Of a DNA stretch of 64,000 nucleotides, positions 16,459 through 44,540 are shown one piece after another (position 1 is the first letter of the stretch; each line of letters starts with the position of its first letter). The DNA is from Gemmatimonadetes bacterium 2013_60CM_65_52. GTDB taxonomy: Bacteria; Gemmatimonadota; Gemmatimonadetes; Gemmatimonadales; Gemmatimonadaceae. Location: positions 488,678 to 552,677 of the forward strand of contig NGFI01000005.1 in assembly GCA_002215645.1 (NCBI GenBank), read 5' to 3'. A program made the position numbers and the translations under genes. The notes beneath the pieces were generated by a model. The model was not told the origin of the DNA, did no database searches, and saw only the letters and a program-made list of their open reading frames with translations.

Positions 16459-16821
16459 GTGAGTCATACAGTTCTGATCTGCGATGACGCGATCTTCATG
16501 CGGACGATGGTCGGTGACATCCTCCAGCAGGCCGGGTTCGAGATCGTCGGCGAGGCCGAAACGGGCGTGCAGGCGGTGGAGAAGTACAAGCAGCTCCGTC
16601 CGGACCTGGTGACGATGGACATCGTGATGCCGGACATGGGCGGCATCGACGCCGTGCGTGAGATCACGAAGTTCGACCCGGGTGCCCGCGTGCTCATGTG
16701 CAGTGCAATGGGCCAGCAGGCACTGGTCGTCGAAGCCATCCAGGCGGGCGCGAAGGATTTCGTCGTCAAGCCGTTCCAGCCGAGCCGCGTGCTCGAAGCC
16801 GTCCAGCGCGTGCTGGGGTAG
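16459..16821 (+). CDS. cheY: CheY-type single-domain response regulator
   Basis: 120 residues, a single receiver domain. The acidic pair is Asp9-Asp10, the phosphorylation site Asp54 (VTMDIVMPDMGG), the switch hydroxyl Ser82 (MCSAMG) and the conserved lysine Lys104 (VVKPF). No output domain is present, so it acts by protein binding after phosphorylation by CheA. Start GTG 16459. It lies between cheW and cheA and is the only free receiver in the locus. With no flagellar genes here, its target may be a pilus or polarity protein rather than a flagellar motor; that is inference. Confidence 0.94.
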   Translation: MSHTVLICDDAIFMRTMVGDILQQAGFEIVGEAETGVQAVEKYKQLRPDLVTMDIVMPDMGGIDAVREITKFDPGARVLMCSAMGQQALVVEAIQAGAKDFVVKPFQPSRVLEAVQRVLG

Positions 16822-18794: not shown

Positions 18795-19415
18795 ATGGAA
18801 GACATTCGGTCCCTGAAAGCGATTCAGCTCGATGCCTTGAGGGAGGTTGCGAACATCGGGGCGGGACACGCCGCAACGGCCCTGTCGCAGATGATCAACA
18901 GCACCATCATGATCTCGGTACCGACGATCAACGTCTCGCGCCTGGAGGAAGTCCCGCCGCAGATCTCGCGTCCGGAGGAACCGGTCGCCGCCGTCCTCAT
19001 GCACATGATGGGCGACCTCACCGGGCGCACGCTGCTCGTGTTTCCGAAGCCCACGGCGCTGCGGCTGGCCGAGATGATGCTGCGGCGGCCGCCTTCGTCG
19101 GCCACCGACCTGGGCGAGATGGAACAGTCGGCGATCAAGGAGGCTGGAAACATCCTGAGCAGCGCCTACATGAACGCCCTGAGCGACTTCATGGGGATGA
19201 TGCTGCTGCCGTCGCCGCCTTCCCTCGCGATAGACATGAGCACCGCGGTGCTGACGACGGCGTATCTGCAATTCGGCACGGACAAGGATTACGTGTTCTG
19301 CGTGGAGAGCGAGTTCTTCATGCAGGACGTCGGCGAAAAGCTGCGCGGCTTCTTCCTGCTGCTGCCCGATCCGGCATCACTCCAGGCCATTCTGCGCGCT
19401 GTCCGCGTCGCGTGA
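18795..19415 (+). CDS. cheC: CheC-family CheY-P phosphatase
   Basis: 206 residues of the CheC/CheX/FliY phosphatase family, which dephosphorylates CheY-P and is stimulated or bound by CheD. Both active-site motifs E-x-x-N are present: Glu17/Asn20 in LREVANIGAGHA and Glu116/Asn119 in IKEAGNILSSAYMNAL. Two intact sites mark the two-site CheC class. The protein ends with FLLLPDPASLQAIL, close to the CheC C-terminal form. There is no CheZ, so this is the likely signal-ending enzyme, with CheD encoded 10.5 kb downstream in the same run. The start follows cheA by 11 nt and the stop precedes the TPR gene by 4 nt. Confidence 0.92.
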   Translation: MEDIRSLKAIQLDALREVANIGAGHAATALSQMINSTIMISVPTINVSRLEEVPPQISRPEEPVAAVLMHMMGDLTGRTLLVFPKPTALRLAEMMLRRPPSSATDLGEMEQSAIKEAGNILSSAYMNALSDFMGMMLLPSPPSLAIDMSTAVLTTAYLQFGTDKDYVFCVESEFFMQDVGEKLRGFFLLLPDPASLQAILRAVRVA

Positions 19416-19419
19416 GTGG

Positions 19420-22137
19420 ATGACTGAGCCGCCCGTTGCATCCCTCACGTCCGAGCGCGACCGCGATGTCCTGCGGTCGTTCGCCCGCCGCATCGATCCC
19501 AGCGACGCGGGCGCGCACAACAACCTCGGCGTGCTGTACTACAACAAGGGGCTGCACGAGGAGGCGGTCGGCGCGCTCATGCGCGCGCTGGAGCTCGACC
19601 CGAAGATGCAGATTGCGCAGCGCAATCTCGAGGTCGCGTACTTCAGCACGGGCTACTATGACCGTCGCGTCGGCGAGCTGACCGAGCGGCTGCGGGCGCG
19701 TCCCGACGAGCGCGAGGCACTCTGGGAGCTGGGGCGCACGCACGCGCTGCTCGGCAAGACCGCGGAGGCGATCACCGTATTTTCGAACCTCCTCCGGTAT
19801 CATCCCAACGATATCGCCGCGCTCGTGCAGCTCGGCTTGGCGGAGCGCATCAGCGGGGACCTCGACCGTGCGCTTGGCTATCTCGAGCGGGCATTGGCGC
19901 TCGATCCGAATTCGTCGGTGGTGAACTTCTACATCGGCGAGGTGCTCTATAATCGCGGCGTGAACGAGGAGGCGCTCGCCGCACTCCGGCGGGCCATCGA
20001 GCTCAATCCGCACAATCCCGACGCGTACTATCTCATGGGGTTCGTGCTGGGGGACATCGGCCGTCAGGACGAGGCGCGCGAGGTCACGCGCCGCGCCATC
20101 CAGCTCAATCCGACGCTCTCTCGCGCACGGGCGAACCTCGTCATCGATGACCGCCGGCAGAATCGCCGGGACGACGCCACGCCGGCGCGGCCGTCGGCAC
20201 ACGTGCCGGCCATGGAGAGCACCGAGGGGCAGCTCGCCCAATACAATCTCGGTCTCGCCTTCCGTCAGAAGGGCTATTACGCGGAAGCCCTGCGCGAGTA
20301 CACGAGAGCGCTGGAGCGCGGTGAGGACCGGCCGCTCGTGCTCCAGGCGATGGCGGAGGTCTACCTGCTGCGCCGCGAGACGCGCGCCGCCGTGGAGCTG
20401 TACGACGAGCTGCTCTCCACCGCGCCGGTGAGTCCGAAGCTCTGGAACGAACGCGGCGTCGCACTGCATCAGGACGGTAAGTACGAAGAGGCGCTCGACA
20501 GCTACCGGCGTGCCGTTCGGGCGGATGCGAACTATGCGTTGGCGCACAACAATCTCGGCGTCGCCCTGAGTCATTTCGGCGAGACCGCCAAGGCGCTCGA
20601 ATCGTTCTGGGAGGCGTTGCGCGTTCAGTCAGCCTTTGGCAAGGCGCGCCTCAATCTCGCGCTGCTGCTGACCCGGCAGGGCAAGTTCCAGCTCGCGCTC
20701 GAGGCATATCGGACCGTGCTCCAGCGCGAGCCGGAGGATGCGGCCGCGTGGAATGGCGTCGGGCTGGTGCTCGTCGAGCTCAAACGCCACGGCGACGCGC
20801 GCAACGCGTTCGTGCGCGCCGTGGAAGCCAAGCCGCAATCCGCGGAAGCGCATTACAACCTGAGCTTCACGCTGTCGAACCTCGGCGACTTCGAGGGGGC
20901 GCTGCGCGAGACGAAGCGCGCGCTGGAGCTGGATCCGTATTACGTGCCCCAGAAGTTCGAGCTGGCTATCGACCTCGAGTACGAAGATCCGGATCTGTCC
21001 ATCAAGCCGGAGCTGGGCGCCGTGCAGCGTCTGGACGAAGCCGTGGAGGATTTCAGCTTCGACTCGAACGTGCTCGATACCATCTTCGAGCAGCTCACGC
21101 CAGCGCCGGCACCGGACGCAAGCGCTGGAGAGGCGGCAGCGGAGACGCCGTATGCCATGGCGGCGGACTATCTCTCAATGGGGCTGATGGACCGCGCCGC
21201 CGCCGAGGTGAGTCGCGCCATCGCGCGCGGTGCAGCGAAGGCCGAGGGATATGCGCTGCTCGGCGAGATCTATGCGCGGCAGGGTTTACATGGTGAGGCA
21301 CTCGAGCGGTATCGGTCAGCGCGCATCGAGGAGCCGTCGTCGCTGCGTGCGCAGCTCGGAGAGGCGTGGGCGTTGCTCGCCCTGAGCCGGGCTCGCGAGG
21401 CGCGTCCACTCGCCGAGACGCTGTTGGAGCAGCACGCGGGCGATGTGGACGTGGTGATGCTCGTGTCCGCCGCGCGCGCGGACTCGGGTGATCCTGCCTC
21501 CGCGCTCGCCGCACTGGATGAAGCGCGCAAGCTGGCGCCGCATCGCCCCGACGTGCACAAGCGCATGGGCGACATCGCCAGCGCGCTCGGCGACAACGAG
21601 GGGGCCATTGCCGCGTATCGCCGCGCGCTGGACCTCGACGGAGAATTCGCCGTCGTCCGCTATCAGCTCGCACGCCTGCTGCGCGCGAAAGCGCTCTTCC
21701 GCGAAGCGGAACAGGAGCTGGAGGCAGCGCTCGACGCCGTGCCGACCTATGCCGAGGCGACGCTGGAGCTGGCGTCGCTGCGAATTGCGGGCGGCCGAGC
21801 CGACGATGCGCTGAGTCAGCTCATCGCCCTGCTCGAGCGCGATCCGTATCACTTCGACGCGCTGCTCGGACTCGGCGAGACGCTCCTCGCTCTTGGACGC
21901 CGAAACGACGCGGGACATGCCTTTCGCCGCATTCTGCGCTTCGATCCGACGCACGTGGGCGCGCTGTACTATGACGGCGTGCTCCTCAACGAGCAGAAGC
22001 GCTTCCGCGATGCCATCATACGGTGGCGGCGCGTCATCGATCTCGAGCCCGCGGGCGAGTTCGCGCGGCGCGCGCGACGCGATGCGCGCACGGCGGCCGA
22101 CCTGCAGGCCATCTTCGCGTCGATGCGGAGCGCCTGA
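19420..22137 (+). CDS. Giant TPR-repeat protein (905 aa)
   Basis: A soluble protein built of tetratricopeptide repeats in two blocks, with the repeat marks N-N-L-G-V, A-Y-Y-L-M-G and D-P-x-x visible throughout. The first block covers about residues 25-510. An acidic linker (about 511-575, with LEYEDPDLS and EAVEDFSFDS) is followed by a second block to the end. No signal peptide or membrane helix is seen, so it should be cytoplasmic. TPR proteins are scaffolds; the flanking cheC, PATAN and MglA genes suggest it helps assemble this signalling complex. ATG 19420 follows cheC by 4 nt. The function is unknown and the partner is inferred only from context. Confidence 0.85.
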   Translation: MTEPPVASLTSERDRDVLRSFARRIDPSDAGAHNNLGVLYYNKGLHEEAVGALMRALELDPKMQIAQRNLEVAYFSTGYYDRRVGELTERLRARPDEREALWELGRTHALLGKTAEAITVFSNLLRYHPNDIAALVQLGLAERISGDLDRALGYLERALALDPNSSVVNFYIGEVLYNRGVNEEALAALRRAIELNPHNPDAYYLMGFVLGDIGRQDEAREVTRRAIQLNPTLSRARANLVIDDRRQNRRDDATPARPSAHVPAMESTEGQLAQYNLGLAFRQKGYYAEALREYTRALERGEDRPLVLQAMAEVYLLRRETRAAVELYDELLSTAPVSPKLWNERGVALHQDGKYEEALDSYRRAVRADANYALAHNNLGVALSHFGETAKALESFWEALRVQSAFGKARLNLALLLTRQGKFQLALEAYRTVLQREPEDAAAWNGVGLVLVELKRHGDARNAFVRAVEAKPQSAEAHYNLSFTLSNLGDFEGALRETKRALELDPYYVPQKFELAIDLEYEDPDLSIKPELGAVQRLDEAVEDFSFDSNVLDTIFEQLTPAPAPDASAGEAAAETPYAMAADYLSMGLMDRAAAEVSRAIARGAAKAEGYALLGEIYARQGLHGEALERYRSARIEEPSSLRAQLGEAWALLALSRAREARPLAETLLEQHAGDVDVVMLVSAARADSGDPASALAALDEARKLAPHRPDVHKRMGDIASALGDNEGAIAAYRRALDLDGEFAVVRYQLARLLRAKALFREAEQELEAALDAVPTYAEATLELASLRIAGGRADDALSQLIALLERDPYHFDALLGLGETLLALGRRNDAGHAFRRILRFDPTHVGALYYDGVLLNEQKRFRDAIIRWRRVIDLEPAGEFARRARRDARTAADLQAIFASMRSA

Positions 22138-22140: not shown

Positions 22141-23283
22141 ATGGCCATCGAGGGACCGCTCCGCGAGCTCGGCATTCACGACGTCTTCCAGCTTCTCGAC
22201 CTGAGCCGGAAGACCGGCGCGCTGCGCGTGACGTCGGAGCTGCGCGACGACGAGGGGTTCGTGCTGTTCGACGGCGGGCGCGTCATTCACGCGAGCATCC
22301 GCAGCAATCCCACATCCATCGAGCGCATTCTCCGGCAGTCGGGAAAGCTCGGGGACAACGAGCTCGAGCTCGCGGCCAACGTCATCGACGATCCCACCAT
22401 GGGCCTCGGAGACCGCCTGGTGATGGCGCGCGTCATCACGCAGAAAGAGCTCGAGCGGCAACTCCGGCAGGCCATCGAGAACGTGGTCTTCGAGCTGATG
22501 TCGTGGCGCGAAGGATTCTTCTCGTTCGAGGAGCGGCAGGTGAGCGACGTGCCGCTCGACGCACGCATTCGCATCTCGACGGAGTCGCTCCTGATGGAAG
22601 GCGCGCGTCGTATCGACGAATGGTCGCGTATCGCCGACCGGGTGCCGAGTCTCGGGATCGTCCCGTCGTTCGCGCCGCTCGAGGACGACCGCGCCTCGGT
22701 GCTCGACCTGCTGCCCAACGAGTGGGAAGTGCTCATGATGATCGACGGCGAGCGCGACCTCCGTGAGATCGCGGCGGCGCTGGGCGCGGGAGAGTTCGAC
22801 GTCGCGAAAATCGTCTACGGATTGCTCTCCACCGGCATCGCCGAAGTGCATACGTCGGATCGTCCGTCGCAGCGGACACTGGAGCGGATCGACGACGAGC
22901 GTCCGGCCATCGCGCAGGCGCGTGAGGCGCTTGACGCGGGCCGATTCGAGGAGGCCATCGTCGCGGCGCGGACGGCGTCGGAGCTCGAGGGAGAATCGAC
23001 ACAGGGCCGCCTGCTGGTCGCCAAGGCGCTAGGGCGGCTCGGCCGGCGCCACGAAGCGGTGGACGAGCTGCGTCGCGCCGTGCAGGCCGACCCGCTCACG
23101 CCGGACGTGCATCTCAATCTCGGCTTCGCCGCCGTGAACGTCGGTGATTTCGCCAACGCGCGCGCCAGCTGGGAGCACTTTCTCCGTCTCTCGCCCGGGT
23201 CGGCGGATGCTGCCCGCATTCAGGCGGCGCTCGAGATCCTCAATCGTCTCCTTCACGTGCTCGAGGCCCATGGCGACGTCTGA
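22141..23283 (+). CDS. PATAN/DUF4388-TPR protein 1
   Basis: 380 residues. The N-terminal ~120 form a PATAN-type DUF4388 domain: LRELGIHDVFQLLDLSRKTG, then GFVLFDGGRVIHA, and FELMSWREGFFSF. PATAN domains occur in PatA-like regulators of type IV pilus motility and phototaxis. A middle helical region (to ~250) contains NEWEVLMMIDGERDLREIA, an element typical of the DUF4388 family. The C-terminal ~120 residues are TPR repeats (HEAVDELRRAVQADPLTPDV). There is no receiver domain. ATG 22141 follows the previous gene by 3 nt, and the stop lies inside the next gene. A paralogue with the same plan is at 27.5 kb; the two frame the roadblock/GTPase/AAA+ genes. Confidence 0.85.
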   Translation: MAIEGPLRELGIHDVFQLLDLSRKTGALRVTSELRDDEGFVLFDGGRVIHASIRSNPTSIERILRQSGKLGDNELELAANVIDDPTMGLGDRLVMARVITQKELERQLRQAIENVVFELMSWREGFFSFEERQVSDVPLDARIRISTESLLMEGARRIDEWSRIADRVPSLGIVPSFAPLEDDRASVLDLLPNEWEVLMMIDGERDLREIAAALGAGEFDVAKIVYGLLSTGIAEVHTSDRPSQRTLERIDDERPAIAQAREALDAGRFEEAIVAARTASELEGESTQGRLLVAKALGRLGRRHEAVDELRRAVQADPLTPDVHLNLGFAAVNVGDFANARASWEHFLRLSPGSADAARIQAALEILNRLLHVLEAHGDV

Positions 23284-24091
23284 CGACATCCGGCGCATGA
23301 GCGACGAGCTCGCACGTGACCCGGGAAGCCGAGTCTTCGTGCCGCTGGGCGACGTCCTGCGCCGTCAAGGGCAGTATGACATCGCGCTCAAGATGGCGCT
23401 CAAGGGTCTCGAGCGGCATCCGCACCTGGTCGAGGGCCACGACCTGCTGGCACGACTGTACGTGGACCGCGGCGAGTTCGAGAAAGGCTTCGACGAATGG
23501 GACATGGTGCTCCGACTTTCGCCGGGACACCTCGGCGCCTTGAAGGGGCTCGGGTTCATCTGCTACCAGCACGAACGCTTTGCCGACGCGGAGCGCTATC
23601 TGTCGGCGGCCGCCCGCATCGATCCGGCGGACGCCGAGGTGGCGAGCGCATTGGAGCACGTCCAAGCCGGACATTTGCAGGCCGCCCGGGCGGGTGAAAC
23701 CCCGCTGCCGGCCTCGATCGCCGCGGACAGCCGCTTTCTCTTCGTGGACGTGCTCCGCGAGGATGGGCAGACGGCCCTTCTCCTCGATCAACAGGGTCTG
23801 GTGCTCGCCGGCGCGTACTTCAACGCCGACGGGGTGGACGTGGCGCAGAACGTCGGAGCGGAGCTGAGTGGCGTCACGGACGCGGCGCGCCGTGCGACAC
23901 GTCACCTCGCCCTTGGCGACTGGTCCTCCATCGTGTTCGAGACGGAGGTTGCCGTGGTCGCGATGGCTCCGGCGCCATCCGATGGCCTCCTCGTGCTCGC
24001 GACGACGCGGGAGACACCACTCGGTCTCGTGAGACGCCTGCTCGACCGCTGCTCGGAGCACGCGGCGCGCTGGTTGAGAGGGTTGATCTAA
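23270..24091 (+). CDS. TPR protein with C-terminal roadblock-like domain
   Basis: 273 residues. The N-terminal ~150 are TPR-like repeats (RRQGQYDIALKMALKGLERH, then FADAERYLSAAARIDPADAE). From about residue 160 a roadblock/LC7-like fold follows: LLLDQQGLVLAGAYF, a helix with VGAELSGVTDAARRATRHL, SSIVFETEVAVVAMAP, and GLLVLATTRETPLGLVRRLL. Roadblock proteins such as MglB act on MglA-type GTPases as activating or exchange factors. ATG 23270 is inside the end of the previous gene and the stop overlaps the next ATG by one base. It is the first of three consecutive roadblock-like genes before the GTPase. Confidence 0.78.
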   Translation: MATSDDIRRMSDELARDPGSRVFVPLGDVLRRQGQYDIALKMALKGLERHPHLVEGHDLLARLYVDRGEFEKGFDEWDMVLRLSPGHLGALKGLGFICYQHERFADAERYLSAAARIDPADAEVASALEHVQAGHLQAARAGETPLPASIAADSRFLFVDVLREDGQTALLLDQQGLVLAGAYFNADGVDVAQNVGAELSGVTDAARRATRHLALGDWSSIVFETEVAVVAMAPAPSDGLLVLATTRETPLGLVRRLLDRCSEHAARWLRGLI

Positions 24092-24456
24092 TGGCGGGAG
24101 TCTTTACGCCCATGCTGCAGGCCATCGGTCGCCATCGCGGGGTCACTGCGGCGTTGGTGGTGGACGAGCGCGACGGCATCGTGGTCGAATCGCACTTGCA
24201 CGTCGGTGTCGAGGAGGATCGTGTGGCCGCGCTGGCCGCGTCGCTCTATCGGAAGGCACGCCTCTCCTCGCGCGCGGCCGGCATGGGCGCCGTGTCGTTC
24301 ATGCAGCTCGAGGCGCCCGGTGGCCGACTGTGTGCGATTGGTGCGGCCGAGCTGGTGCTCATCGTCGTGGCGCAGCCTTCGGTCAACGTCGGCCTGGTGC
24401 GGGTGGAGATGTTGCGGTCGATTGCCCGACTGGTCGAGGCGGGTGGCGGCGCATGA
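24091..24456 (+). CDS. Roadblock/LC7-domain protein (MglB-like)
   Basis: 121 residues matching a stand-alone roadblock domain. The first strand pair ALVVDERDGIVVES is followed by a helix with RVAALAASLYRKARLSSRAA, then SFMQLEAPGGRLCAIG, ELVLIVVAQPSVNVGLVRVEM and a final helix. This is the layout of MglB/roadblock regulators. Start ATG 24091 shares a base with the previous stop (TAATG), and the stop overlaps the next start as ATGA. The MglA-type GTPase is two genes on. Whether it acts as GAP, exchange factor or scaffold cannot be read from sequence. Confidence 0.8.
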   Translation: MAGVFTPMLQAIGRHRGVTAALVVDERDGIVVESHLHVGVEEDRVAALAASLYRKARLSSRAAGMGAVSFMQLEAPGGRLCAIGAAELVLIVVAQPSVNVGLVRVEMLRSIARLVEAGGGA

Positions 24457-24926
24457 TGACGATGGTCGTCGAGTCGTGGATCGAGGAGCCGCTGCGCCGC
24501 TTCGTGGACGATGCCCAGGTGGAGCTCGCGCTGCTCCTGCATCCAAACGGGCAGGTGCTGGCACAGCACGGTTTCACTCGCGCCGTGGACGTCATGACCG
24601 CGTGCGCGCTCGCGGCGGGGATTCACGCCACGAGCAACGAGCTGGGTCGGCTGGTGGAAGACAAGCCCTTCCGGGGACTGCACCACGCTGGCGTTGCCCG
24701 CCAGATCTTCATTTCGGAGGCACGCTCGCAGCGCGGAGCATACATTTTCCTAACGGTGTTCGGTTCGGAAAGCTCACTCGGTCTGGTCCGCCTGTATTTC
24801 AACGAGCTCGCAGCGGGCTTGGCCGCGGCGGCGCCTCCGGAGGGCGCCGCACCGGCGCCAGCGCTGGCGGAGCAGTTCGAGCAGGAGCTCAACCGAAATC
24901 TTGCCGTGCTGTTTGGCCGCGCCTGA
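24453..24926 (+). CDS. Roadblock-like protein, third of the series
   Basis: 157 residues. The core resembles a roadblock domain: LLLHPNGQVLAQHGF, VMTACALAAGIHATSNELGR, FRGLHHAGVARQIFISEA, YIFLTVFGSESSLGLVRLYF. An Ala/Pro-rich hinge and a short C-terminal helix follow (LAEQFEQELNRNLAVLF). The similarity to MglB is weaker than for the preceding gene. ATG 24453 overlaps the previous stop (ATGA); a second ATG lies one codon on. The GTPase gene begins 21 nt after the stop, the longest gap in the whole run. A dimeric partner of the GTPase is the most reasonable guess. Confidence 0.72.
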   Translation: MMTMVVESWIEEPLRRFVDDAQVELALLLHPNGQVLAQHGFTRAVDVMTACALAAGIHATSNELGRLVEDKPFRGLHHAGVARQIFISEARSQRGAYIFLTVFGSESSLGLVRLYFNELAAGLAAAAPPEGAAPAPALAEQFEQELNRNLAVLFGRA

Positions 24927-24947: not shown

Positions 24948-25562
24948 GTGTCGCTCGTCAACTACGCCACACGCGAGATTACGTGCAAGATCGTCTACTA
25001 TGGCCCGGGTCGCTCGGGCAAGACGACGAATCTGCATTACATCTACGGTCAGGTCCCTGAAGACAGAAAGGGGAAGATGGTCTCGCTGGCCACGCAGACG
25101 GACCGCACGCTGTTCTTTGACTTCCTGCCGCTCGACCTTGGCTCCATCTCGGGGTTCACCACCAAGTTCCAGCTCTACACCGTGCCGGGGCAGGTCTACT
25201 ATCAGACCACGCGGCGGCTCGTGCTCCAGGGCGCGGACGGCGTGGTGTTCGTGGCGGACAGCCAGACCCGACAGCTCGCCGAGAACATCGAGAGCTTTCA
25301 GGATCTGCATGCAAATCTGGCGGAGCAGGGTGTCGACCCGAGGACGATGCCGCTGGTGGTGCAATACAACAAGCAGGACCTGCCAAAGGAACTGATTCTC
25401 CCCGTCAGCGAGCTCTCGGACGCCATCAACTTTCGGGACGTTCCGGAATTCGCGGCCGACGCGCTGCACGGGCCCGGCGTCTTCGAGACGCTGCGAGGCA
25501 TCTCCGAGCTCGTCCTGCGACGGTTGAGCGCCGGAGCTGGCGCGACACCGGCCAGCAGATAA
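24948..25562 (+). CDS. mglA: MglA-type Ras-like GTPase
   Basis: Small GTPase of the MglA family, the polarity switch of gliding and type IV pilus motility in Myxococcus and Thermus. P-loop GPGRSGKT is at residues 19-26; the glycine-rich second half fits MglA. Next come TQTDRTLFFDFLPLDLG, the switch II region YTVPGQVYYQTTRRLVL, which has the MglA VPGQ form rather than the Ras form, and NKQD at 141-144 for guanine. 204 aa is the usual size. GTG 24948 is the only start before the first strand. It follows three roadblock-like genes and precedes the tandem DnaA-like gene by 2 nt. The GTPase-polarity role is known for the family; the target here is not. Confidence 0.92.
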   Translation: MSLVNYATREITCKIVYYGPGRSGKTTNLHYIYGQVPEDRKGKMVSLATQTDRTLFFDFLPLDLGSISGFTTKFQLYTVPGQVYYQTTRRLVLQGADGVVFVADSQTRQLAENIESFQDLHANLAEQGVDPRTMPLVVQYNKQDLPKELILPVSELSDAINFRDVPEFAADALHGPGVFETLRGISELVLRRLSAGAGATPASR

Positions 25563-25564: not shown

Positions 25565-27487
25565 ATGCAGGTCGATCCGCGCGCGCGCTTCGAAAACTAC
25601 GTCGTGGGCACGGCCAATCGGCTCGCCGTGGCCGCCGCGCGCGCTGTGGCAGAGTCGCCCGGCGCCGTGTACAACCCGCTCTTCGTCTACAGCGGGTCGG
25701 GGCTCGGCAAGACGCACCTGATCAACGCCATCGGCAATCACGCGCAGCAGCGGGCGCCGGAGCTCGGTATCGAGTACGTGGGGCTCGAGGACTTCGTGCA
25801 GCAGTTGCACGCCGCCATGGCGGCAGGCGAGATGGAGCGCTTCAAGCAGCGGTACGGACGCGTGGACGTCCTGCTCGTAGACGACCTGCAATTTCTCACG
25901 GGGCGCCGCGAGACCCAGAGTGAGCTGCTGCGCTTGTTGAACGCACTCCAGGGGAGCGGACGTCAGATCGTCATGACGAGCGATCGCCCGCCCGCGGAGA
26001 TCAGCGACGTCGACGAACGCCTGATCAGCCGCCTCAGCGGTGGACTCATCGTGGACATTGGCGCGCCCGATTACGAGACCCGCGTCGCCATTCTCCGCGA
26101 GAAGTGCGAGGAGCGGCAGATCTCCTTTGCGGCCGGCGTGCTGGAGGAGCTGGCGCGGGTGGAGTTCGGCAACGTGCGCGAGCTCCAGGGCGCACTGAAC
26201 CGCCTCAGCGCCCATCAGTCGCTCGACGGAACGCTCACGCCGGCGCAGGTGCGAAGCATCGCGGGCCTGCCCGAGCCCGCGGCGCCACCGGCGCGCACCT
26301 CAGTTCAGACCGACGAGTTCTTCAGCTTCCTCACCGACATCGCGAGCGCCGTCGCGGCGCACGTGGAGCCATGGAAGGTGCGCATCGGCGAAGCCGTGGC
26401 GTACTGGAGCGGAGAAGGTTACCGGACGTCGGCGCTCGAGACGATGATGTCGATGTCCGAGGCGCCACCGAACTATGAATCGTTGCTGCGCGGCTATGGA
26501 CAGGCCGTGGAGCAGCTCCGTGAGTTGGAGCGACAGGTGACGACCGTGGACGCGCGGCTTGGCGGAAGTGACCTGTTCCGGGATCCCGAGCGCCTGGCCG
26601 AAGCGACGACGTTCGTGCAGAACGCGCTTGCCGGCGCCGTTCCGCCAGGAGGACCGCAACCCGCGTTCGCTCGGAACGGATTCGAGGAGAGCGCCGCCAA
26701 TCAGATGGCGGTGCGCGCCGCGGATGTCGTCATCGCCGAGCCGGGGCAGCGGTACAATCCTCTCTTCCTGCTCGGTCCCACGGGCGTGGGCAAGACACAT
26801 CTCCTCAACGCCATCGGCAACGAGCTACAGCTGCGGTTCGGCGCCGGCGGACGCGTGGCATGCGTGAGCGCCCAGCTCTTCATCGAGGAGCTCATCGCGG
26901 CGCTGCAGGAGGGAACGGTCGAACGCTTTCGCGCGCGATACCGCGCGGCCGACGCGCTGCTGATCGACGACGTGCAGTTCGTGGGCTCCAAGGAGCGCAC
27001 GCAGGAAGAGCTCTTTCACGTCTTCAACCACTTTCACGCGGCCGGAAAGCAGCTCGTCTTCGCGAGCGACATTGCGCCCAGGAACATCGAGGGCCTCGAG
27101 GACCGCCTCCGTTCGCGCTTCGAGGGTGGTCTCGTGGCGGAGATCGGCCAGCCCGACCGGCCGTTGCGCGAGAAGCTGTTCATCCGGTTTGTCGCCGATG
27201 CGCGACTGAGCGTTCCGCCCGAGGTGATTGCCTATCTCGCGGACCGGCCGGCGACGAGCGTCCGCGAGCTGATGGGCACCGTACAGCGCCTGCGCGCCGG
27301 GCTGGAAAGCCTGGGCGTTGCGGCCACGCTTGCGACGGCGCGTCAGATTCTCGAGCCGTCGGGCATGACGCCGAGCAGCGCGCCCATCGCTGTGCGACAG
27401 GCGGCAGACACGTTCTTTCTGGACGACGAGAAGATCGTATGGGAGTGGCCCGACGTCGCCGGCCGCCTGGTGGAGGAGCTGCGCTGA
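25565..27487 (+). CDS. Tandem DnaA/Hda-type AAA+ ATPase without DNA-binding domain
   Basis: 640 residues with two complete DnaA-like AAA+ modules. Module 1 (about 5-235): FENYVVGTANRLA as in DnaA domain III, Walker A GSGLGKTH at 44-51, Walker B VLLVDDLQFL ending near 111, and sensor 2 NVRELQGALNRL. Module 2 (about 380-590): RYNPLFLLGPTGVGKTH, Walker A near 403, Walker B ALLIDDVQFV near 463, and sensor 2 SVRELMGTVQRL. Between them lies a helical linker of ~140 residues. The DnaA domain IV helix-turn-helix is absent, and the C-terminus ends in a short segment (DDEKIVWEWPDVAGRLVEEL). It is placed between the MglA GTPase (2 nt) and a PATAN-TPR gene (1-base overlap). No related family member is known to me from motility loci; function unknown. 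Confidence 0.85.
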   Translation: MQVDPRARFENYVVGTANRLAVAAARAVAESPGAVYNPLFVYSGSGLGKTHLINAIGNHAQQRAPELGIEYVGLEDFVQQLHAAMAAGEMERFKQRYGRVDVLLVDDLQFLTGRRETQSELLRLLNALQGSGRQIVMTSDRPPAEISDVDERLISRLSGGLIVDIGAPDYETRVAILREKCEERQISFAAGVLEELARVEFGNVRELQGALNRLSAHQSLDGTLTPAQVRSIAGLPEPAAPPARTSVQTDEFFSFLTDIASAVAAHVEPWKVRIGEAVAYWSGEGYRTSALETMMSMSEAPPNYESLLRGYGQAVEQLRELERQVTTVDARLGGSDLFRDPERLAEATTFVQNALAGAVPPGGPQPAFARNGFEESAANQMAVRAADVVIAEPGQRYNPLFLLGPTGVGKTHLLNAIGNELQLRFGAGGRVACVSAQLFIEELIAALQEGTVERFRARYRAADALLIDDVQFVGSKERTQEELFHVFNHFHAAGKQLVFASDIAPRNIEGLEDRLRSRFEGGLVAEIGQPDRPLREKLFIRFVADARLSVPPEVIAYLADRPATSVRELMGTVQRLRAGLESLGVAATLATARQILEPSGMTPSSAPIAVRQAADTFFLDDEKIVWEWPDVAGRLVEELR

Positions 27488-29106
27488 TGGCGATCAAGGG
27501 TAGCCTCAAGGAGGCCAGTCTCCCCGACGTGCTGCAGCTCCTTTCCATGGGGAAAAAGACGGGCTGCCTTGCCGTGACGCACCGCAACAACTTCGGGTAC
27601 GTCTACTTCGACAAGGGTCTCATCTCGTACGCGTCGATCGTGAATCGGCGCGACCGCATCGGCGACATCCTCGTCAAGGCCGGCGCCATCACGCAGACGC
27701 AGCTCGACGCGGCCATCAGCGCGCAGGCCCTGCATCGTGACAAGCGCATCGGCGAGCTCCTCGTGGCGCAGGGTGCCGTGAAGCGCGAGCAGCTCCATGC
27801 GCAGATCCGCCTCCAGATCGAGGAGGCGGTGTACTACCTGTTCACCTGGACGCAGGGGACGTTCAACTTCGAGGCCGACGTCCGTCCGGAAGAGCAGGAC
27901 TTCCTCGTCTCCATCAACCCGGAGTCGCTGCTGCTCGAGGGCGCGCGGCGCGTGGACGAGTGGAGCCTGATCGAGAAGAAGATCTCCAGCCTCGACCTCG
28001 TGTTCGACGTGGACCGCCGCAAGCTGGCCGAGAGCGGCGTCGAGCTTCCGGAAGATCAGCGGCAGATCATGGATCTCCTCGATGGGCGTCGCGACGTCCA
28101 GGCGGTGATCGAGGAATCGGGGATGGGCGAGTTCGACGTCGGAAAGGCCATCTTCGGCCTCGTGTCGGCCGGCTTTGCGCAGCGGGTGGGCAAGACGAAG
28201 GCGACGGAGCCCACGGTGAGCGACGCACGCGTCGACGAACATCGCAACCTCGGCATCGCGTTCTACAAGACCGGCATGCTCGACGAGGCCATGCGCGAGT
28301 TCCGCCGCGTGAGCGAGCTCCGTGAGCACGACGTGGAAGCGCGGTTCTACATCGGGCTCGCGCTCATGCGGCAGCAAAAATGGTCCGATGCGGTCGTCGC
28401 CTTCCGGGAGTGCGTCACGCAGCCCGGCGCGCGGCCGGCGGCCTTTCATAACCTCGCGCATGCGCTCGAGCGGTTGGGGCGCTTCGACGAAGCCAAGAGC
28501 GCGCTCGACGGCGCCATCCGTCGCGGCGGGGCGAAGGACCCGCGCATCCAGACGTCGCTCGGAGTCGTAGCCCTTCGCGGCGGCGACCTCGTGTCGGCGG
28601 ACTCCGCATTCAGCGCGGCTCGTCCCCTGTTTGGCACGAAGCCGCCGACGGCGCCCTGGTACCACTATGCGGCCCTCACGGCGGCGCTGCTCGGCGATCT
28701 CGAGCGGGCATACACGCTGCTCACGGAAGGCATCGGGTCGCACCCGCATGCCGCGCCGCTGCACAACAACATGGCCGCCGTGCAGGAGCGCCGCGGCTAC
28801 CACCCTGAAGCGCTGAGCGCGGCGGAGCGTGGCGTTCTCGAGGACACCGGCCTGCCGCAACTGCACAAGAATCTCGGCGACTGCCACTATCGCGCCGCGC
28901 GCTACGACGACGCGATGGAGTGCTATCTCCGCGCCGTGAAGCTGAGTCCCGCGCTGGGTGACGACATCTACCTCAAGCTCGGCAACATCCGCTTCAAACG
29001 GCAGGAGCGCGAGGAGGCCGTGCGCTGCTGGGAGCAGTCGCTCGCGCTCGATCCGGAGAACGCGATCGTCCGCACGAATCTCGAAGCTGTGCGGCAGGTG
29101 CTGTAG
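27487..29106 (+). CDS. PATAN/DUF4388-TPR protein 2, with MshEN-like segment
   Basis: 539 residues. The N-terminal PATAN/DUF4388 domain (KGSLKEASLPDVLQLLSMGK, KTGCLAVTHR, GYVYFDKGLISYASI) is followed by two RIGDIL/RIGELL repeats (about residues 57-110, RIGDILVKAGAITQTQLDAA and RIGELLVAQGAVKREQLHA). These resemble the MshEN/GspE N-terminal fold found in type IV pilus and secretion ATPases, where some copies bind c-di-GMP. Then come FTWTQGTFNFEAD, the DUF4388 tail element and about seven TPR repeats to the end. The ATG shares a base with the previous stop (TGATG). It is paralogous to the gene at 22.1 kb but carries the extra MshEN-like part. An adaptor between the pilus or polarity machine and Che signalling is inferred. 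Confidence 0.83.
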   Translation: MAIKGSLKEASLPDVLQLLSMGKKTGCLAVTHRNNFGYVYFDKGLISYASIVNRRDRIGDILVKAGAITQTQLDAAISAQALHRDKRIGELLVAQGAVKREQLHAQIRLQIEEAVYYLFTWTQGTFNFEADVRPEEQDFLVSINPESLLLEGARRVDEWSLIEKKISSLDLVFDVDRRKLAESGVELPEDQRQIMDLLDGRRDVQAVIEESGMGEFDVGKAIFGLVSAGFAQRVGKTKATEPTVSDARVDEHRNLGIAFYKTGMLDEAMREFRRVSELREHDVEARFYIGLALMRQQKWSDAVVAFRECVTQPGARPAAFHNLAHALERLGRFDEAKSALDGAIRRGGAKDPRIQTSLGVVALRGGDLVSADSAFSAARPLFGTKPPTAPWYHYAALTAALLGDLERAYTLLTEGIGSHPHAAPLHNNMAAVQERRGYHPEALSAAERGVLEDTGLPQLHKNLGDCHYRAARYDDAMECYLRAVKLSPALGDDIYLKLGNIRFKRQEREEAVRCWEQSLALDPENAIVRTNLEAVRQVL

Positions 29107-29107
29107 C

Positions 29108-29923
29108 GTGACGGACACGCAAGACGAAGCATTCGCGTCGCTCACCGAGAAGATCGCGCGAGAGCGCGGATTCGGTTGCGCAAGCTACAAGGAGAAGTGC
29201 CTGCGCCGCCGCATCGCGGTGCGCATGCGCGCGAAGGGCGTGCACACCTATGGCGACTACGCCCGCGTGCTCGACACGGATCAACAGGAGTACGACCGGC
29301 TGCTCGACGCGCTGACCATCAACGTCACGAAGTTGTTCCGCAACTGGGAGACGTATGCCGTGATCGCGGAGAAAGTCGTGCCGGCGCTGTGGGCCCGTTC
29401 GGGCCCGATCGACGTCTGGAGCGCCGGTTGTTCCTCCGGCGAAGAGCCCTATTCGCTCGGCGCACTCTTTCATCGCCACGCTGAATCGCTCGGCCAGCTC
29501 GCGGACCTCGCCAAGCGCGTCCGGATCCTCGGAAGCGACATCGACACGCGCTGCCTGGCGGCGGCAGAACACGGCACTTTCGAGGAAGGCGATTTTGTCG
29601 ATACACCGGCGGAACTCAGGCGTCGATACTTTGATTCCACCGCGCCATTCACGATCATCCCCGACGTCAGGCGTCTCGTGCGCTTCGAGCGCAGAGACCT
29701 GCTCGCGGAACCGGCCCCTCCCGGAACGTTTCACCTGATCTGCTGCCGCAACGTGCTCATCTACTTCGATCGTGAGACACAGGAGCGCCTGTTCGCGAAG
29801 TTTCGCGGCGCGCTCGCGCCGGACGGTTTTCTCGTGCTGGGCAAGGTCGAGACGCTGCTTGGCTCCGCGAGGACGCGCTTCGCCCCGGTGGACGGGCGCG
29901 AGCGCGTCTACCGGCCGCTGTGA
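29108..29923 (+). CDS. cheR: Chemoreceptor glutamate methyltransferase CheR
   Basis: Methylates receptor glutamates with S-adenosylmethionine for adaptation. 271 residues: an N-terminal helical domain with YKEKCLRRRIAVRMRAKGV and VTKLFRNWETY, then the SAM-binding VWSAGCSSGEEPYSLG, the LGSDID acidic loop, and the CheR hallmark FHLICCRNVLIYFDRETQ. There is no C-terminal pentapeptide tether or TPR. GTG 29108 follows the preceding stop by 1 nt, and its stop overlaps cheD as GTGA. A receptor must exist elsewhere in the genome for this enzyme to act on, since none is encoded here. Confidence 0.94.
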   Translation: MTDTQDEAFASLTEKIARERGFGCASYKEKCLRRRIAVRMRAKGVHTYGDYARVLDTDQQEYDRLLDALTINVTKLFRNWETYAVIAEKVVPALWARSGPIDVWSAGCSSGEEPYSLGALFHRHAESLGQLADLAKRVRILGSDIDTRCLAAAEHGTFEEGDFVDTPAELRRRYFDSTAPFTIIPDVRRLVRFERRDLLAEPAPPGTFHLICCRNVLIYFDRETQERLFAKFRGALAPDGFLVLGKVETLLGSARTRFAPVDGRERVYRPL

Positions 29924-30417
29924 CGACGTCGCTGATCGAGGTCCGTGTAAAGGTCGCGGACTTTGCCGTCCGCCAGGGCGACGTGGTGCTCACCACCATC
30001 GGTCTGGGGTCGTGCGTTGCCATCGCCCTGTACGACCGCGAAGCCCGCGTGGGCGGCCTGGCGCATATTCTCCTGCCGTCGCCATCGATGTCGCGCGAGA
30101 CGGCCAATCCGGCGAAGTTCCCCGAGACGATCGTTCCCGTGATGCGCGACGAGATGCGTCGCCTCGGCTCCGCGTCGGACGCGCACGTGAGCGCGAAGAT
30201 CGTGGGCGGGGCAAGCATGTTCGGCCAGCTCACCACCGGCGGCGGCATCAACGTGGGCGAGCGGAACGTGGCGGCGACGCGTGAGGTGCTCGCGGCGGCG
30301 GGCATTCCACTCCTCGCGGATGATACGGGGCTGGACTACGGCCGCAGCGTCTACTTCTTCCTGGATGACGGCCGCGTCGAGGTCCGGTCGCTGAAGAAGG
30401 GAGATCGTGTCATCTGA
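29920..30417 (+). CDS. cheD: Chemoreceptor glutamine deamidase CheD
   Basis: Deamidates receptor glutamines and binds CheC to modulate CheY-P loss. The 165-residue protein has the catalytic Cys32 in TIGLGSCVAIALYD and His49 in GGLAHILLP, with KIVGGASMF and NVGERN further on. Start GTG 29920 overlaps the cheR stop (GTGA) and the end lies 11 nt inside cheB. Together with the two-site CheC at 18.8 kb it gives the CheC/CheD feedback pair known from Bacillus and Thermotoga. Confidence 0.94.
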   Translation: MTTSLIEVRVKVADFAVRQGDVVLTTIGLGSCVAIALYDREARVGGLAHILLPSPSMSRETANPAKFPETIVPVMRDEMRRLGSASDAHVSAKIVGGASMFGQLTTGGGINVGERNVAATREVLAAAGIPLLADDTGLDYGRSVYFFLDDGRVEVRSLKKGDRVI

Positions 30418-31486
30418 CGCTCGGGCCACCGTCCTCGTGGTGGATGACAGCGCCTTCATGCGGCGCCTCATCGGCGAGATGGTGGACGCGTCGCAGGAAT
30501 TCCGCGTCATCGGCACGGCGCGCAACGGGCTCGACGCGCTGCGGCAGATCCATGCGCTCGACCCACAGATCGTCACGCTCGACGTGGAGATGCCGGAGCT
30601 CGACGGCCTTCAGACGCTCGGCTACATCATGAGTGAGACGCCTCGCGCGGTCGTGATGCTCAGCGCCGCGCAGTCGGTCGGCGGCGTGGACCTGACGCTT
30701 CGCTGCCTCGAGATCGGCGCGGTGGAGTTCATCAGGAAACCGTCGGGTGCCATCAGTCTCGATCTCGAGCGTGTGGGCGACCAGCTCGTGACCGCCCTTC
30801 GCGCGGCGCGCGAAAGCAATCTCCGCGGCGTCACGGCGCTGGCTCGCCCGCCCTGGGTGGAGTCGAGGCCGCCGCGCCCCGCGAGCGCGAATGTGAAGTG
30901 GGCGGTGGCCATCGCGACGTCTACGGGCGGTCCGCGAGCGCTCGCCGAGGTCATTCCGCACCTGCCGGCGGACCTCGATGCCACGGTGTTCGTGGTGCAG
31001 CACATGCCCGCCGGGTTCACCCGCGGACTTGCGCAGCGGCTCGACACCATGAGCCAACTTCGCGTGCACGAGGCGTCGGAAGGACAGGCGGTGGAGGTGA
31101 ACAACGTCTACGTCGCGCCCGGCGGGTTGCACATGCGCGTGGCCGGCAGGGGCGAGAGCGGCCGTCGCATCGCCCTGGACGACGGCCCTTCCATCTGGGG
31201 AGTGCGTCCCGCTGCAGATCCGCTGTTCGCCTCCGTGGCCGAGCAGTTCGGCCAGCACGCCGTGGGTGTGGTGCTCACCGGAATGGGGCGAGACGGAGCC
31301 GAGGGTCTGAAGGCCATCCGCCACGCGGGGGGCGGCGGAATCGTGCAGGACAAGGAGTCGTCCACCATTTATGGAATGCCCTTCGCGGCGCTGCAGCGCG
31401 CGGGCGCTGACCGGGTGTCGCCGCTCGATCACGTCGCACCGTCCGTGGTACAGATGCTCGCCTCACGACGGAAGGCGGTCGCATGA
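30407..31486 (+). CDS. cheB: Chemotaxis methylesterase/response regulator CheB
   Basis: 359 residues: a receiver domain with phosphorylation site Asp59 (VTLDVEMPELDG), a linker, and a methylesterase domain. The catalytic triad is visible as Ser172 (ATSTGGPRAL), His199 (VVQHMPAGF) and Asp296 (TGMGRDGA). It removes methyl groups added by CheR and may deamidate. Start GTG 30407 lies in the end of cheD, and its stop overlaps the next gene as ATGA. Motifs and length are regular for CheB. Confidence 0.95.
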   Translation: MSSDARATVLVVDDSAFMRRLIGEMVDASQEFRVIGTARNGLDALRQIHALDPQIVTLDVEMPELDGLQTLGYIMSETPRAVVMLSAAQSVGGVDLTLRCLEIGAVEFIRKPSGAISLDLERVGDQLVTALRAARESNLRGVTALARPPWVESRPPRPASANVKWAVAIATSTGGPRALAEVIPHLPADLDATVFVVQHMPAGFTRGLAQRLDTMSQLRVHEASEGQAVEVNNVYVAPGGLHMRVAGRGESGRRIALDDGPSIWGVRPAADPLFASVAEQFGQHAVGVVLTGMGRDGAEGLKAIRHAGGGGIVQDKESSTIYGMPFAALQRAGADRVSPLDHVAPSVVQMLASRRKAVA

Positions 31487-32283
31487 TCGAGGACCACTGG
31501 GCCCTCGAGCGTCGCGCATTCGCGAACACTCCCGATCCGGAGTTCATCTATCGATCGCCGTCGTTTGCCGAGGGCTATGCACGCCTGCTGCACGACGCGA
31601 CGGATCTTCGCGGCGGCCTGTCCCTCATCACCGGAGAGATTGGCTGCGGCAAGACGATGCTCGCGCGTGCACTGGCCGATCGGCTGGCTGGCTCCACGTG
31701 CGACCTCATCGAGGTGCCCTACCCGAAGGTGACGCCGACGCAGATGCTCCAGACCGTGGCCGGTGGACTCGGCATCCAGCCGCCGCCCAGGGGCAAGCTT
31801 GCTCTGGTGCAGGCCATCGCCGCGCGTCTGGCGGAGCGTCATGCCGAGGGGCGGAGGCCCGTGCTCATCGTTGACGAGGCGCAGCTCGCGACGCCATCGC
31901 TGCTCGAGGAAATCCGCCTGCTCACCAACCACGAGGCGCGGCAGGACAAGTACCTCCACGTGGTACTGTTGGGGCAGCCCGAGCTGCGGCAGCGGGTGAA
32001 ACAGCGTCCGCAGATCGATCAGCGCGTCAGCCTGCGGTTTCACGTGGAGCCGATGGAGGCGGAGGACGTTCGTGGTTACGTCGAGCACCGCTTGCGCGTA
32101 GCAGGATGGAAAGGCAAGACCATATTCACGCACGACGCGTTCACCGCGCTCGCTGCCCGCAGTGAGGGGATTCCGCGGCGCATCAACACGCTCGTGACGC
32201 AGGCGCTGTTCGTCGGCGCCATGCGGCAACTGACAGCCATCGACGGCGAGCTCATGTTCGACGTCGCGGACGACCAGGAATGA
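31483..32283 (+). CDS. ExeA/GspA-like AAA+ ATPase
   Basis: 266 residues of the ExeA/TniB-type AAA family. FANTPDPEFIYRSPSFAEG is the usual N-terminal signature, followed by LSLITGEIGCGKTMLARALA (Walker A at 51-58), VLIVDEAQL (Walker B), LLGQPELRQRV and EGIPRRINTL. ExeA/GspA proteins help place secretins of type II secretion or pili through peptidoglycan. The membrane helix and peptidoglycan-binding domain of full-length ExeA are missing here; only the ATPase part exists. It starts within cheB (ATGA) and overlaps the following cheW by 4 nt. Its presence inside a che operon suggests a motility-linked rather than secretion-linked role (inference). Confidence 0.85.
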   Translation: MIEDHWALERRAFANTPDPEFIYRSPSFAEGYARLLHDATDLRGGLSLITGEIGCGKTMLARALADRLAGSTCDLIEVPYPKVTPTQMLQTVAGGLGIQPPPRGKLALVQAIAARLAERHAEGRRPVLIVDEAQLATPSLLEEIRLLTNHEARQDKYLHVVLLGQPELRQRVKQRPQIDQRVSLRFHVEPMEAEDVRGYVEHRLRVAGWKGKTIFTHDAFTALAARSEGIPRRINTLVTQALFVGAMRQLTAIDGELMFDVADDQE

Positions 32284-32939
32284 AGAAGAAGCGTATCCGC
32301 TACAGCGAGCTCTCGCCCGTGCCGCGCGAGGAACAGAAGCGTCGCATCTCCACCCCCGTCGATCTCGCGCGCGCCATTGCGGCGGAGCGAGCCGCGGAGG
32401 CGGCGATGGCCGCGGCGGCCGCTGCACGTGACGCCCACGCATCGGCCGGCGACGAGTCGGTTCCGGCGTCGGCATCGGTCGCTCAGAGCGTGGATCAGCC
32501 GCGCGTGGCGCGGAGCGAGTTGCTCCTGTTCCGCGTGGCGCACGAGCGCTTCGCCGTTCCACTCACGGACGTGGAAGAAGCCGTTGACAGGGCGGTCGTG
32601 CATTTCGTCCCCGAGATGCCGCCATCCATGCTCGGCGTCGTCTCCCTGCGCGGATCGCTCGTGTGCGTCTTCTCTCCCAATCTGGCACTCGGGCTCCCCG
32701 CCACCGAGCAGCACACGGTGCTCATCTTTCATCAGGGCCCGACGCGCGTTGGCGTGCTCGTGGACGACGTCGAAGACGCCGTCACAGTGGATCCCAGCGA
32801 GCTGCGAAACCCGCCGATGGCCGAGCGGAGCGAGATGGTACACGCCGTCGCTCGAGTCGGTGATGAGCTCCTGTCCGTGGTGGATCCCCAGCGCCTCATC
32901 TCCGCGTGTCAGCGCGGAACGTTCGCGGAAGCCACATGA
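32280..32939 (+). CDS. cheW: CheW-like coupling protein 2 with long N-terminal extension
   Basis: 219 residues; the CheW domain starts near residue 78 (SELLLFRVAHERFAVPLTDV, then PPSMLGVVSLRGSLVCVFSP, VGVLVDDVEDAVTV, LLSVVDPQRLI). The first ~75 residues are a separate extension: a very basic start (MKKKRIRYSEL), then an Ala-rich helix (AAERAAEAAMAAAAAARDA). Nothing in the extension matches a known domain; it could be a tether to a partner. The start overlaps the ATPase stop (ATGA) and the stop overlaps the next cheW (ATGA). It is one of three CheW genes, and the most divergent of them. Confidence 0.88.
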   Translation: MKKKRIRYSELSPVPREEQKRRISTPVDLARAIAAERAAEAAMAAAAAARDAHASAGDESVPASASVAQSVDQPRVARSELLLFRVAHERFAVPLTDVEEAVDRAVVHFVPEMPPSMLGVVSLRGSLVCVFSPNLALGLPATEQHTVLIFHQGPTRVGVLVDDVEDAVTVDPSELRNPPMAERSEMVHAVARVGDELLSVVDPQRLISACQRGTFAEAT

Positions 32940-33415
32940 GTACACAGGGCAACAAGCTCGTCATCTTCTGCCTTGGCGAAGACCATTTCGCGGCCGACGT
33001 GCACGTCGTCGAGCGGGTGCTTCGCTACGCGTCGCCTACGCCGGTGCCGGACACGCCCGCCTACATCGAGGGGGTGCTGGACTACCTCGGCCGCGTGGTG
33101 CCGATCGTGAATCTCCGCCGCCGACTGGAGCTCGAGCCCCGCGAGGTGCGCCCCGAGACGCGCACGGTGGTCCTGAACGTCTCCGGCGAATGGATTGGGC
33201 TGGTCGTGGATTCGGTGACGGAGGTGGCGCCGTTCGAGCAGGCGAGCCTCTCGGCGCCGCCGAAGATGTTCCGCGGGCTCACACGCGATTACGTGAAGGG
33301 CATCGTGCGTCTGAACGGTAGGCTCGTCATCTATCTCGACGTGGAGCACCTGCTCAGCTCCACGGAGCGCATCGCGCTGCAGAGCTCCGGAGCGGAGGCC
33401 CTCGCCGGTGAGTGA
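32936..33415 (+). CDS. cheW: CheW-like coupling protein 3
   Basis: 159 residues, one CheW domain: LVIFCLGEDHFAADVHVVER, then DTPAYIEGVLDYLGRVVPIV, NLRRRLELE, WIGLVVDSVTEV and VKGIVRLNGRLVIYLDVEHLL. ATG 32936 overlaps the stop of the previous cheW (ATGA); the frame continues upstream to 32906 but only shadows that gene. Having two adjacent, different CheW genes plus one at the start of the locus points to more than one array or to a branched receptor-kinase link. Confidence 0.92.
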   Translation: MSTQGNKLVIFCLGEDHFAADVHVVERVLRYASPTPVPDTPAYIEGVLDYLGRVVPIVNLRRRLELEPREVRPETRTVVLNVSGEWIGLVVDSVTEVAPFEQASLSAPPKMFRGLTRDYVKGIVRLNGRLVIYLDVEHLLSSTERIALQSSGAEALAGE

Positions 33416-34244
33416 GCTGAGCGACGCATATCGCGCTCGCATCGTCGCCCTCGGCGCGCGTTTCGAGGCGCCCACCGCCATGGCGGAACGGGACGCAATC
33501 CGCGCTGAGCTCATCGCCCTTGGGAAGTCGCTGGAGCAGGACCTCGCGGACCTCACCACACTGAAGGAAGAGGCGCGGGGGCTCGTGGACCGTTGGAAGG
33601 CGCTCCAGGCCAACAGCGCGCCCGCCTTCAACGCCGACAAGCCAGTGGTCATGGATCACATCGGCGCGTCCACCTTCATGGAAAAAGGGTGGAGTCGCAT
33701 TTCCCTTGGTGACTACGCCGGCGCGGAGGACAGCCTGCACAAGGCACTCGAGCTCGTGCCCAACGATCCGCAGGCGGAATCGCTGCTCGGCTGGGCGCAG
33801 ATGCTCCAGGAGAAGTACGACGACGCCTTGATGCAGTTCCAGAAGGTGCTGATGCGCGAGCCCGCGAACGCGCTCGCCCGCATCAACGTCGGCTACATCT
33901 GCCTGAAGAAGCACATCTTCGGCGAAGCCATCGAGCATCTCTCGCGGGCCATTCGGTTGGACACCGATCGCAAGGCCACGCTCTACGCGCATTTCTACCT
34001 CGGCCTGGTGTACCTCGAGCGCGACATGTTCGAGGACGCCCAGACCTTCTTCCAGAAGACGCTCGCGCTCGGGCCCAACCTCATCGAGGCGTACTACGAG
34101 CTGGGACGCGCGTACTGGTTCAACGGCCAGCGCGAGGAAGCCTCCCAGGCGTGGCGGGACGGCTACGCGGCCAACAAGTTCAATCCGTGGGGCAAGAAGT
34201 GCGCGGAGGTACTCAAGGTGGTGGAGGAGGGCGGCGAGCCCTGA
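33408..34244 (+). CDS. Coiled-coil/TPR protein (278 aa)
   Basis: The first ~75 residues are a helical, partly coiled-coil part (ERDAIRAELIALGKSLEQDL, LTTLKEEARGLVDRWKALQ). Residues from ~85 on are TPR repeats (YAGAEDSLHKALELVPNDPQ, YDDALMQFQKVLMREPANAL, FGEAIEHLSRAIRLDTDRK, FEDAQTFFQKTLALGPNLIE). No signal peptide or membrane helix. Start GTG 33408 lies inside the end of cheW 3. It has the form of a Frz/Che-associated TPR adaptor such as FrzCD partners, but no specific family is recognised. The next gene starts in its stop codon. Confidence 0.82.
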   Translation: MSELSDAYRARIVALGARFEAPTAMAERDAIRAELIALGKSLEQDLADLTTLKEEARGLVDRWKALQANSAPAFNADKPVVMDHIGASTFMEKGWSRISLGDYAGAEDSLHKALELVPNDPQAESLLGWAQMLQEKYDDALMQFQKVLMREPANALARINVGYICLKKHIFGEAIEHLSRAIRLDTDRKATLYAHFYLGLVYLERDMFEDAQTFFQKTLALGPNLIEAYYELGRAYWFNGQREEASQAWRDGYAANKFNPWGKKCAEVLKVVEEGGEP

Positions 34245-44515: not shown

Positions 44516-44540
44516 ACGCACTTCTCACCAGACCCGCCGC

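Follow-up and report, generated by a model that had tools for sequence, protein, structure and literature searches.

To our knowledge, DnaA-type ATPases are known only in DNA handling or in the regulation of DnaA, replication and transposition. The pocket with which Bacillus subtilis DnaA holds single-stranded DNA comprises Asn187, Ile190, Ile193, Arg202 and Glu228, and Asn187 captures a base (PMC10721633). PATAN proteins of Synechocystis bind the pilus extension motor PilB1 (PMC9090330), PATAN genes have earlier been noted close to MglA and MglB genes (PMC4316618), and in Myxococcus a network of MglA, SgmX, FrzS and SopA controls PilB (PMC11580455). In the open-access literature searched we found no account of a DnaA-type protein in an MglA, roadblock, AAA+ or chemosensory context. 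The analysis reported here suggests that a replication-type ATPase has been recruited for a motility or surface-sensing switch across the Gemmatimonadota, a class of soil and water bacteria.

The window, i.e. the whole stretch of 64,000 nucleotides analysed, comes from contig NGFI01000005.1 of Gemmatimonadetes bacterium 2013_60CM_65_52. The ORF singled out by the original prediction, which was made from the sequence alone, has the length and coordinates given there, and the following features were assigned to it.

25565..27487, forward strand: double DnaA-type AAA+ protein of 640 aa (from ORF and profiles; GC3 0.85)
25571..26230, forward strand: first module (M1), DnaA domain III-type AAA+, residues 3-222, with Walker A/B, box VII Arg and sensor 2 Arg present
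26312..26638, forward strand: helical middle domain, residues about 250-358, a fold of its own with Trp270 and Gly285 invariant
26660..27358, forward strand: second module (M2), DnaA-type AAA+, residues 366-598, with Walker motifs intact in the window copy and lost in family f5
27428..27484, forward strand: C-terminal motif EKIVWEWPDVAGRLVEELR, residues 622-640, from the alignment; a proposed docking peptide

The Bac_DnaA profile (PF00308) matches the protein in two stretches with a whole-protein E-value of 9.2e-108, and the two modules taken separately score 191.7 and 173.2 bits. In the window protein both modules possess the Walker A Lys/Thr, both Walker B Asp residues, the box VII Arg and the sensor 2 Arg; in M2 an Ile replaces the Arg beside the sensor 1 Asp. 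AlphaFold2 modelling gave two confident AAA+ folds (pLDDT mostly >90; overall 88) and a helical middle, with a full-chain pTM of 0.49, so that the mutual placement of the modules is not trusted. The profile matches, the catalytic residues and the folds thus agree with the prediction of two full DnaA-type modules with intact motifs. Among the homologues, M1 has the Walker A Lys in 69/69, the first Walker B Asp in 69/69, the box VII Arg in 61/69 and the sensor 2 Arg in 57/69; its catalytic residues are kept nearly everywhere, while the Walker motifs of M2 are lost in family f5. Whole-model Foldseek matches to p97 and Rix7 were rejected as generic tandem AAA+ similarity (rmsd >20 A).

As predicted, no domain IV follows M2: the profile of the domain IV helix-turn-helix, Bac_DnaA_C (PF08299), has no match in the 640-aa protein. 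The lack of a match cannot be put down to the method, because the same library found PF08299 in single-module DnaA paralogues of the genus. These paralogues, present in genomes G002, G003 and G004 of the window's genus as a second, short DnaA-like protein (about 380-425 aa), are located as follows; no such second protein was found in the window genome with PF00308 at an E-value of 0.001.

L071, 535-1722, reverse strand: short DnaA-like protein with domain IV
L072, 2060-3187, forward strand: short DnaA-like protein with domain IV
L073, 9683-10957, forward strand: short DnaA-like protein with domain IV

The region between the modules had been described as a helical linker of about 140 residues. 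The length holds (roughly 145 aa), but the region contains a folded domain of its own at about residues 250-358 (109 aa), which reached a pLDDT of 88.7 and a pTM of 0.74 when modelled alone with AlphaFold2. A search of the PDB by sequence gave no match to this middle domain, and a fold search, itself weak, gave four Foldseek matches, all with E >4, plus helical ones of low Z. A DNA-binding middle domain was considered; within the limits of that search no DNA-binding domain was recognised there or in the tail, and the original prediction of a protein without one stands. At the positions of the single-stranded DNA pocket the window protein has Q/H/M/K/E in M1 and E/I/L/R/E in M2. Asn187, present in 19/19 of the DnaA set, is thus replaced by Gln (M1) or Glu (M2) in the window protein, and the homologues mostly have an acidic residue there; at the Ile190 position most M1 copies carry His, Thr or Ala. 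It is quite improbable that the double AAA+ protein still binds DNA through its module surfaces or middle domain, for example to place a signalling complex on the nucleoid. The M2 homologues do retain much of the pocket (Ile/Val at the Ile190 position in 49/56, Arg202 in 55/56 and Glu228 in 54/56), so that some nucleic-acid binding by M2 may persist, but domain IV is missing, Asn187 is replaced in both modules, Ile190 is changed in most M1 copies, and the middle domain has no DNA-binding match, though in a weak search.

A quick maximum-likelihood tree, which took in M1, M2 and DnaA, placed each of the three in one clade (SH-aLRT 98, 97 and 98, respectively). The modules are therefore not recent dnaA copies, a candidate explanation excluded by their position outside the DnaA clade, and both predate the families sampled. 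By the tree the modules fall outside true DnaA, and membership in Hda was judged by profile score and clamp motif. The Hda profile TIGR03420 scored 169.8 bits against a cut-off of 194.8, despite the two modules being summed, and none of the homologues checked has the clamp-binding motif Q[LIM]x[LM][FPW] within its first 40 residues. The IstB profile NF038214 reached 108.5 bits against a cut-off of 200, and the DnaC and DnaI profiles remained far below their cut-offs; the loose cut-off of PF01695 was passed via the shared AAA+ core. The DnaA equivalog profile TIGR00362 gave the whole protein 520 bits against a cut-off of 344, probably because the two modules are summed. Annotators should be cautious, since automatic annotation may name the double AAA+ protein DnaA on the strength of TIGR00362.

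The gene encoding the double AAA+ protein sits within a complete chemosensory cluster, which extends from CheW, CheY and CheA upstream to CheR, CheD, CheB and CheW downstream. The flanking MglA GTPase and PATAN protein of the original prediction were both confirmed; the cluster around them had been overlooked. The stop codon of the gene overlaps the start of the PATAN-MshEN-TPR gene (TGATG). The genes of the cluster are as follows.

15935..16447, forward strand: CheW
16459..16821, forward strand: CheY receiver
16834..18783, forward strand: CheA histidine kinase
18795..19415, forward strand: CheC
19420..22137, forward strand: 905-aa TPR-type protein (ORF, named by inspection; synteny-conserved)
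22141..23283, forward strand: PATAN-TPR protein
23276..24091, forward strand: TPR-roadblock protein
24091..24456, forward strand: roadblock protein
24417..24926, forward strand: roadblock (MglB-like) protein (Robl_LC7; weak MglB profile match)
24948..25562, forward strand: MglA-type small GTPase
27487..29106, forward strand: PATAN (DUF4388)-tandem MshEN (c-di-GMP-type)-TPR protein, the constant neighbour
29083..29923, forward strand: CheR methyltransferase (start approximate)
29920..30417, forward strand: CheD
30407..31486, forward strand: CheB
31483..32283, forward strand: second, unrelated AAA ATPase (PEP-CTERM/XrtA-type, AAA_22)
32280..32939, forward strand: CheW-domain protein
32906..33415, forward strand: CheW
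33408..34244, forward strand: TPR protein (synteny-conserved)

The AAA_22 ATPase scores 201 bits with the XrtA/PEP-CTERM profile against a cut-off of 324, and is absent from the clusters of many relatives. Upstream of the cluster lie ileS and rluD, recognised in the window by inspection and in the syntenic locus L144 by profile. A divIVA gene is found at 8805-9350 of the window, upstream of the signalling cluster, and the order divIVA-ileS-rluD is common to the window and family f5. Division and wall genes (an FtsI-type PBP, murF, ftsW and ftsZ) are located downstream at 39649-54229. A further MglA-type gene elsewhere in the genome (G000:C13:77291-77767, L297) shows 62% identity over 161 residues. 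No replication gene was found among the neighbours scanned, in line with the original prediction, and dnaA is on another contig.

The middle domain was detected in 176 of the 298 Gemmatimonadota genomes, belonging to 86 of the 119 genera, and most of 60 near genomes have a full-length relative. The double AAA+ protein is class-wide in Gemmatimonadota and not a local oddity. When the PATAN alignment was used for searching, none of the best 80 of 327 matches was labelled as another phylum, and a few were labelled only 'bacterium'. A plasmid collection yielded an unlinked DUF4388 gene in Thermomicrobium and otherwise matches to the AAA+ part only, annotated dnaA where annotated.

The order MglA, double AAA+ gene, PATAN-MshEN-TPR is kept in families f1-f4, f6 and f9. 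In nearly all of the 20-kb neighbourhoods examined from families f1-f6 and f9 the PATAN-MshEN-TPR gene lies next to the double AAA+ gene with the order unchanged; the exceptions are truncated contigs and one frame-disrupted f5 copy. In the distant family f5 the AAA+/PATAN pair stands alone at the ileS-rluD locus, with no che, roadblock or mgl genes alongside, and the f5 genomes carry MglA elsewhere. A conserved in-frame TGA in the f5 MglA matches was dismissed as an ordinary stop inside the alignment. A PATAN protein (E-value 1e-30 or better) is present in 176/176 genomes with the middle domain (Fisher p 1e-52, uncorrected for kinship), and 28 genomes have a PATAN protein with no middle domain detected. 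In genome G233 (locus L160) the AAA+ and PATAN proteins are fused in one ORF of 1051 aa; only this one MAG gene shows the fusion, and in the congener G238 the two genes are separate. Locus L148, considered as a second fusion, proved to be a frame-disrupted copy. As judged from these gene arrangements, the constant partner is probably the PATAN-MshEN-TPR protein. That the protein serves foremost as an effector or regulator of MglA, with the PATAN gene merely next in the operon, would fit its position directly 3' of mglA in families f1-f4, f6 and f9, but seems unlikely, because the f5 copy lies beside the PATAN gene and away from mglA, which is elsewhere in the genome, and because the one fusion joins PATAN and not MglA. 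The original prediction had proposed recruitment into a signalling or motility complex. The class-wide context supports this well, for the gene lies in and co-evolves with the genes of CheA-CheW-CheR-CheB, roadblock, MglA and PATAN, a link that fails for che and mgl in f5; MglA, as f5 and the fusion show, is not the constant partner.

The AAA+ modules are less constant than the PATAN partner. Two modules are present in families f1-f5, and a protein of about 400 aa with one module and the middle domain is found in f6, f9 and some of f1. Loci L056 and L138 have the middle domain without AAA+ modules. Three-prime of M2 a tail motif of about 20 residues is conserved (consensus EKxVWEWPDxxxRxIEELR), which is retained in lineages whose AAA+ modules are gone. 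In five loci an ORF of 67-104 aa (stop to stop) with this motif lies directly 5' of the PATAN gene; such short ORFs are probably easily missed in annotation.

L274, 9881-10081: short ORF with tail motif
L275, 8570-8806: short ORF with tail motif
L277, 2097-2408: short ORF with tail motif
L278, 9458-9691: short ORF with tail motif
L281, 11923-12144: short ORF with tail motif

L274 and L065 retain helix 1 of the middle domain as well. Among the genomes that have no middle domain, several have a PATAN homologue without residues 1-108 (the match starts at about 108), and hence without the first part of PATAN and the greater part of the MshEN pair; thus the absence of the MshEN-bearing N-terminus appears to accompany that of the middle domain, a pattern seen in a few lineages. 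Since the AAA+ modules are lost in some lineages, control by ATP cannot be essential to the core function. The constancy of the tail and the middle domain points to a docking role on the PATAN protein, and the variability of the modules to a regulatory one. With the natural series from two modules to one, to none and to a peptide, the role of ATP can be tested directly.

These remnants also bear on whether the protein is a replication regulator, distantly Hda-like or DnaA-interacting, through which signalling or the state of the cell cycle would act on initiation by DnaA. DnaA-type modules in which the box VII and sensor 2 residues are conserved, divIVA upstream and the ftsI-ftsZ division cluster downstream would suit such a role, which we nevertheless consider highly unlikely: the Hda score is below the cut-off and no clamp motif was seen in the homologues checked, neither dnaN nor dnaA is nearby, the module clades stand apart from DnaA, and the remnant of the gene stays in the same signalling locus after loss of both modules.

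We consider the odds about even that the double AAA+ protein is a dedicated, ATP-switched AAA+ adaptor of the adjacent PATAN-MshEN-TPR effector, with the type IV pilus as its most likely target. Docking onto the PATAN-TPR protein would be through the C-terminal motif and helix 1 of the middle domain, and the DnaA-type modules would bind ATP, M1 in nearly all lineages and M2 only in some. As in DnaA, ATP, the arginine finger and sensor 2 would set an assembled versus a disassembled state. This state may then gate the engagement of a target by the PATAN protein with its c-di-GMP-type MshEN pair; the machinery of type IV pili is the likeliest target, and the gate would receive input from CheA signalling and from the MglA/roadblock switch wherever these are present. 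Physical binding, ATP-driven assembly, pilus output and c-di-GMP control of the pair are all inferred. An assembly switch controlled by ATP is a tentative proposal, somewhat short of an even chance. The fuller account, in which a duplicated replication-initiator ATPase became a DNA-free assembly switch for a c-di-GMP-reading pilus PATAN effector and was later stripped to a docking microprotein, is possible but rather doubtful. If true, it would mean that the assembly engine of DnaA is reusable as a protein switch without DNA.

The tandem MshEN profile NF053729 was found in 14/14 PATAN proteins (49.4 bits in the window, cut-off 38), and from its sequence the MshEN pair of the partner predicts c-di-GMP input. 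With respect to the output, the 14 genomes without any PilT-family match all lack the middle domain, and in f5 at least 5 PilT-family matches were obtained in 22/24 genomes with the middle domain versus 6/48 without, in counts that take in related ATPases and are uncorrected for kinship. PilT-family genes are present in most genomes without the double AAA+ protein too, and PilM matches discriminate poorly. Given the related ATPases in the counts, the uncorrected kinship and the poor discrimination by PilM, the evidence for a pilus output is suggestive only, and we give an output on type IV pili roughly equal chances of being right or wrong. An output on an envelope function other than pili, for instance the export of exopolysaccharide or a chemosensory pathway of the alternative-cellular-function type, with the PATAN protein still the partner, is less probable, though a real possibility. 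The PEP-CTERM/XrtA-type ATPase family is linked to exopolysaccharide systems, and one such ATPase is present in the chemosensory cluster, within which no pilus gene was found; the PilT-family association and the PATAN-PilB binding known from cyanobacteria argue instead for the pilus.

Compared with the known systems, the double AAA+ protein is closest in its modules to DnaA domain III, with which it shares the fold and the catalytic motifs; M1 is 44% identical to the organism's own DnaA, and the best Foldseek matches are DnaA. It differs from DnaA in having two modules per chain, no domain IV and no base-capturing Asn, and in its own tree clades and signalling context. Hda is likewise a DnaA-type AAA+ protein without domain IV, whereas the protein described here has two modules, no clamp motif, a sub-cut-off Hda score and no replication context. 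With the PixE-type PATAN-REC pilus regulators of Synechocystis the locus has in common the PATAN domain and che and MglA/roadblock neighbours; here, in contrast, the partner is a PATAN-MshEN-TPR protein without a receiver and is paired with an AAA+ protein, a pairing unreported in the literature found. The feature shared with the MglA/SgmX/FrzS/SopA network of Myxococcus is MglA together with a TPR protein controlling pili, but no AAA+ adaptor has been described in that network, whereas the CheA, roadblock, MglA and PATAN genes lie here in one cluster.
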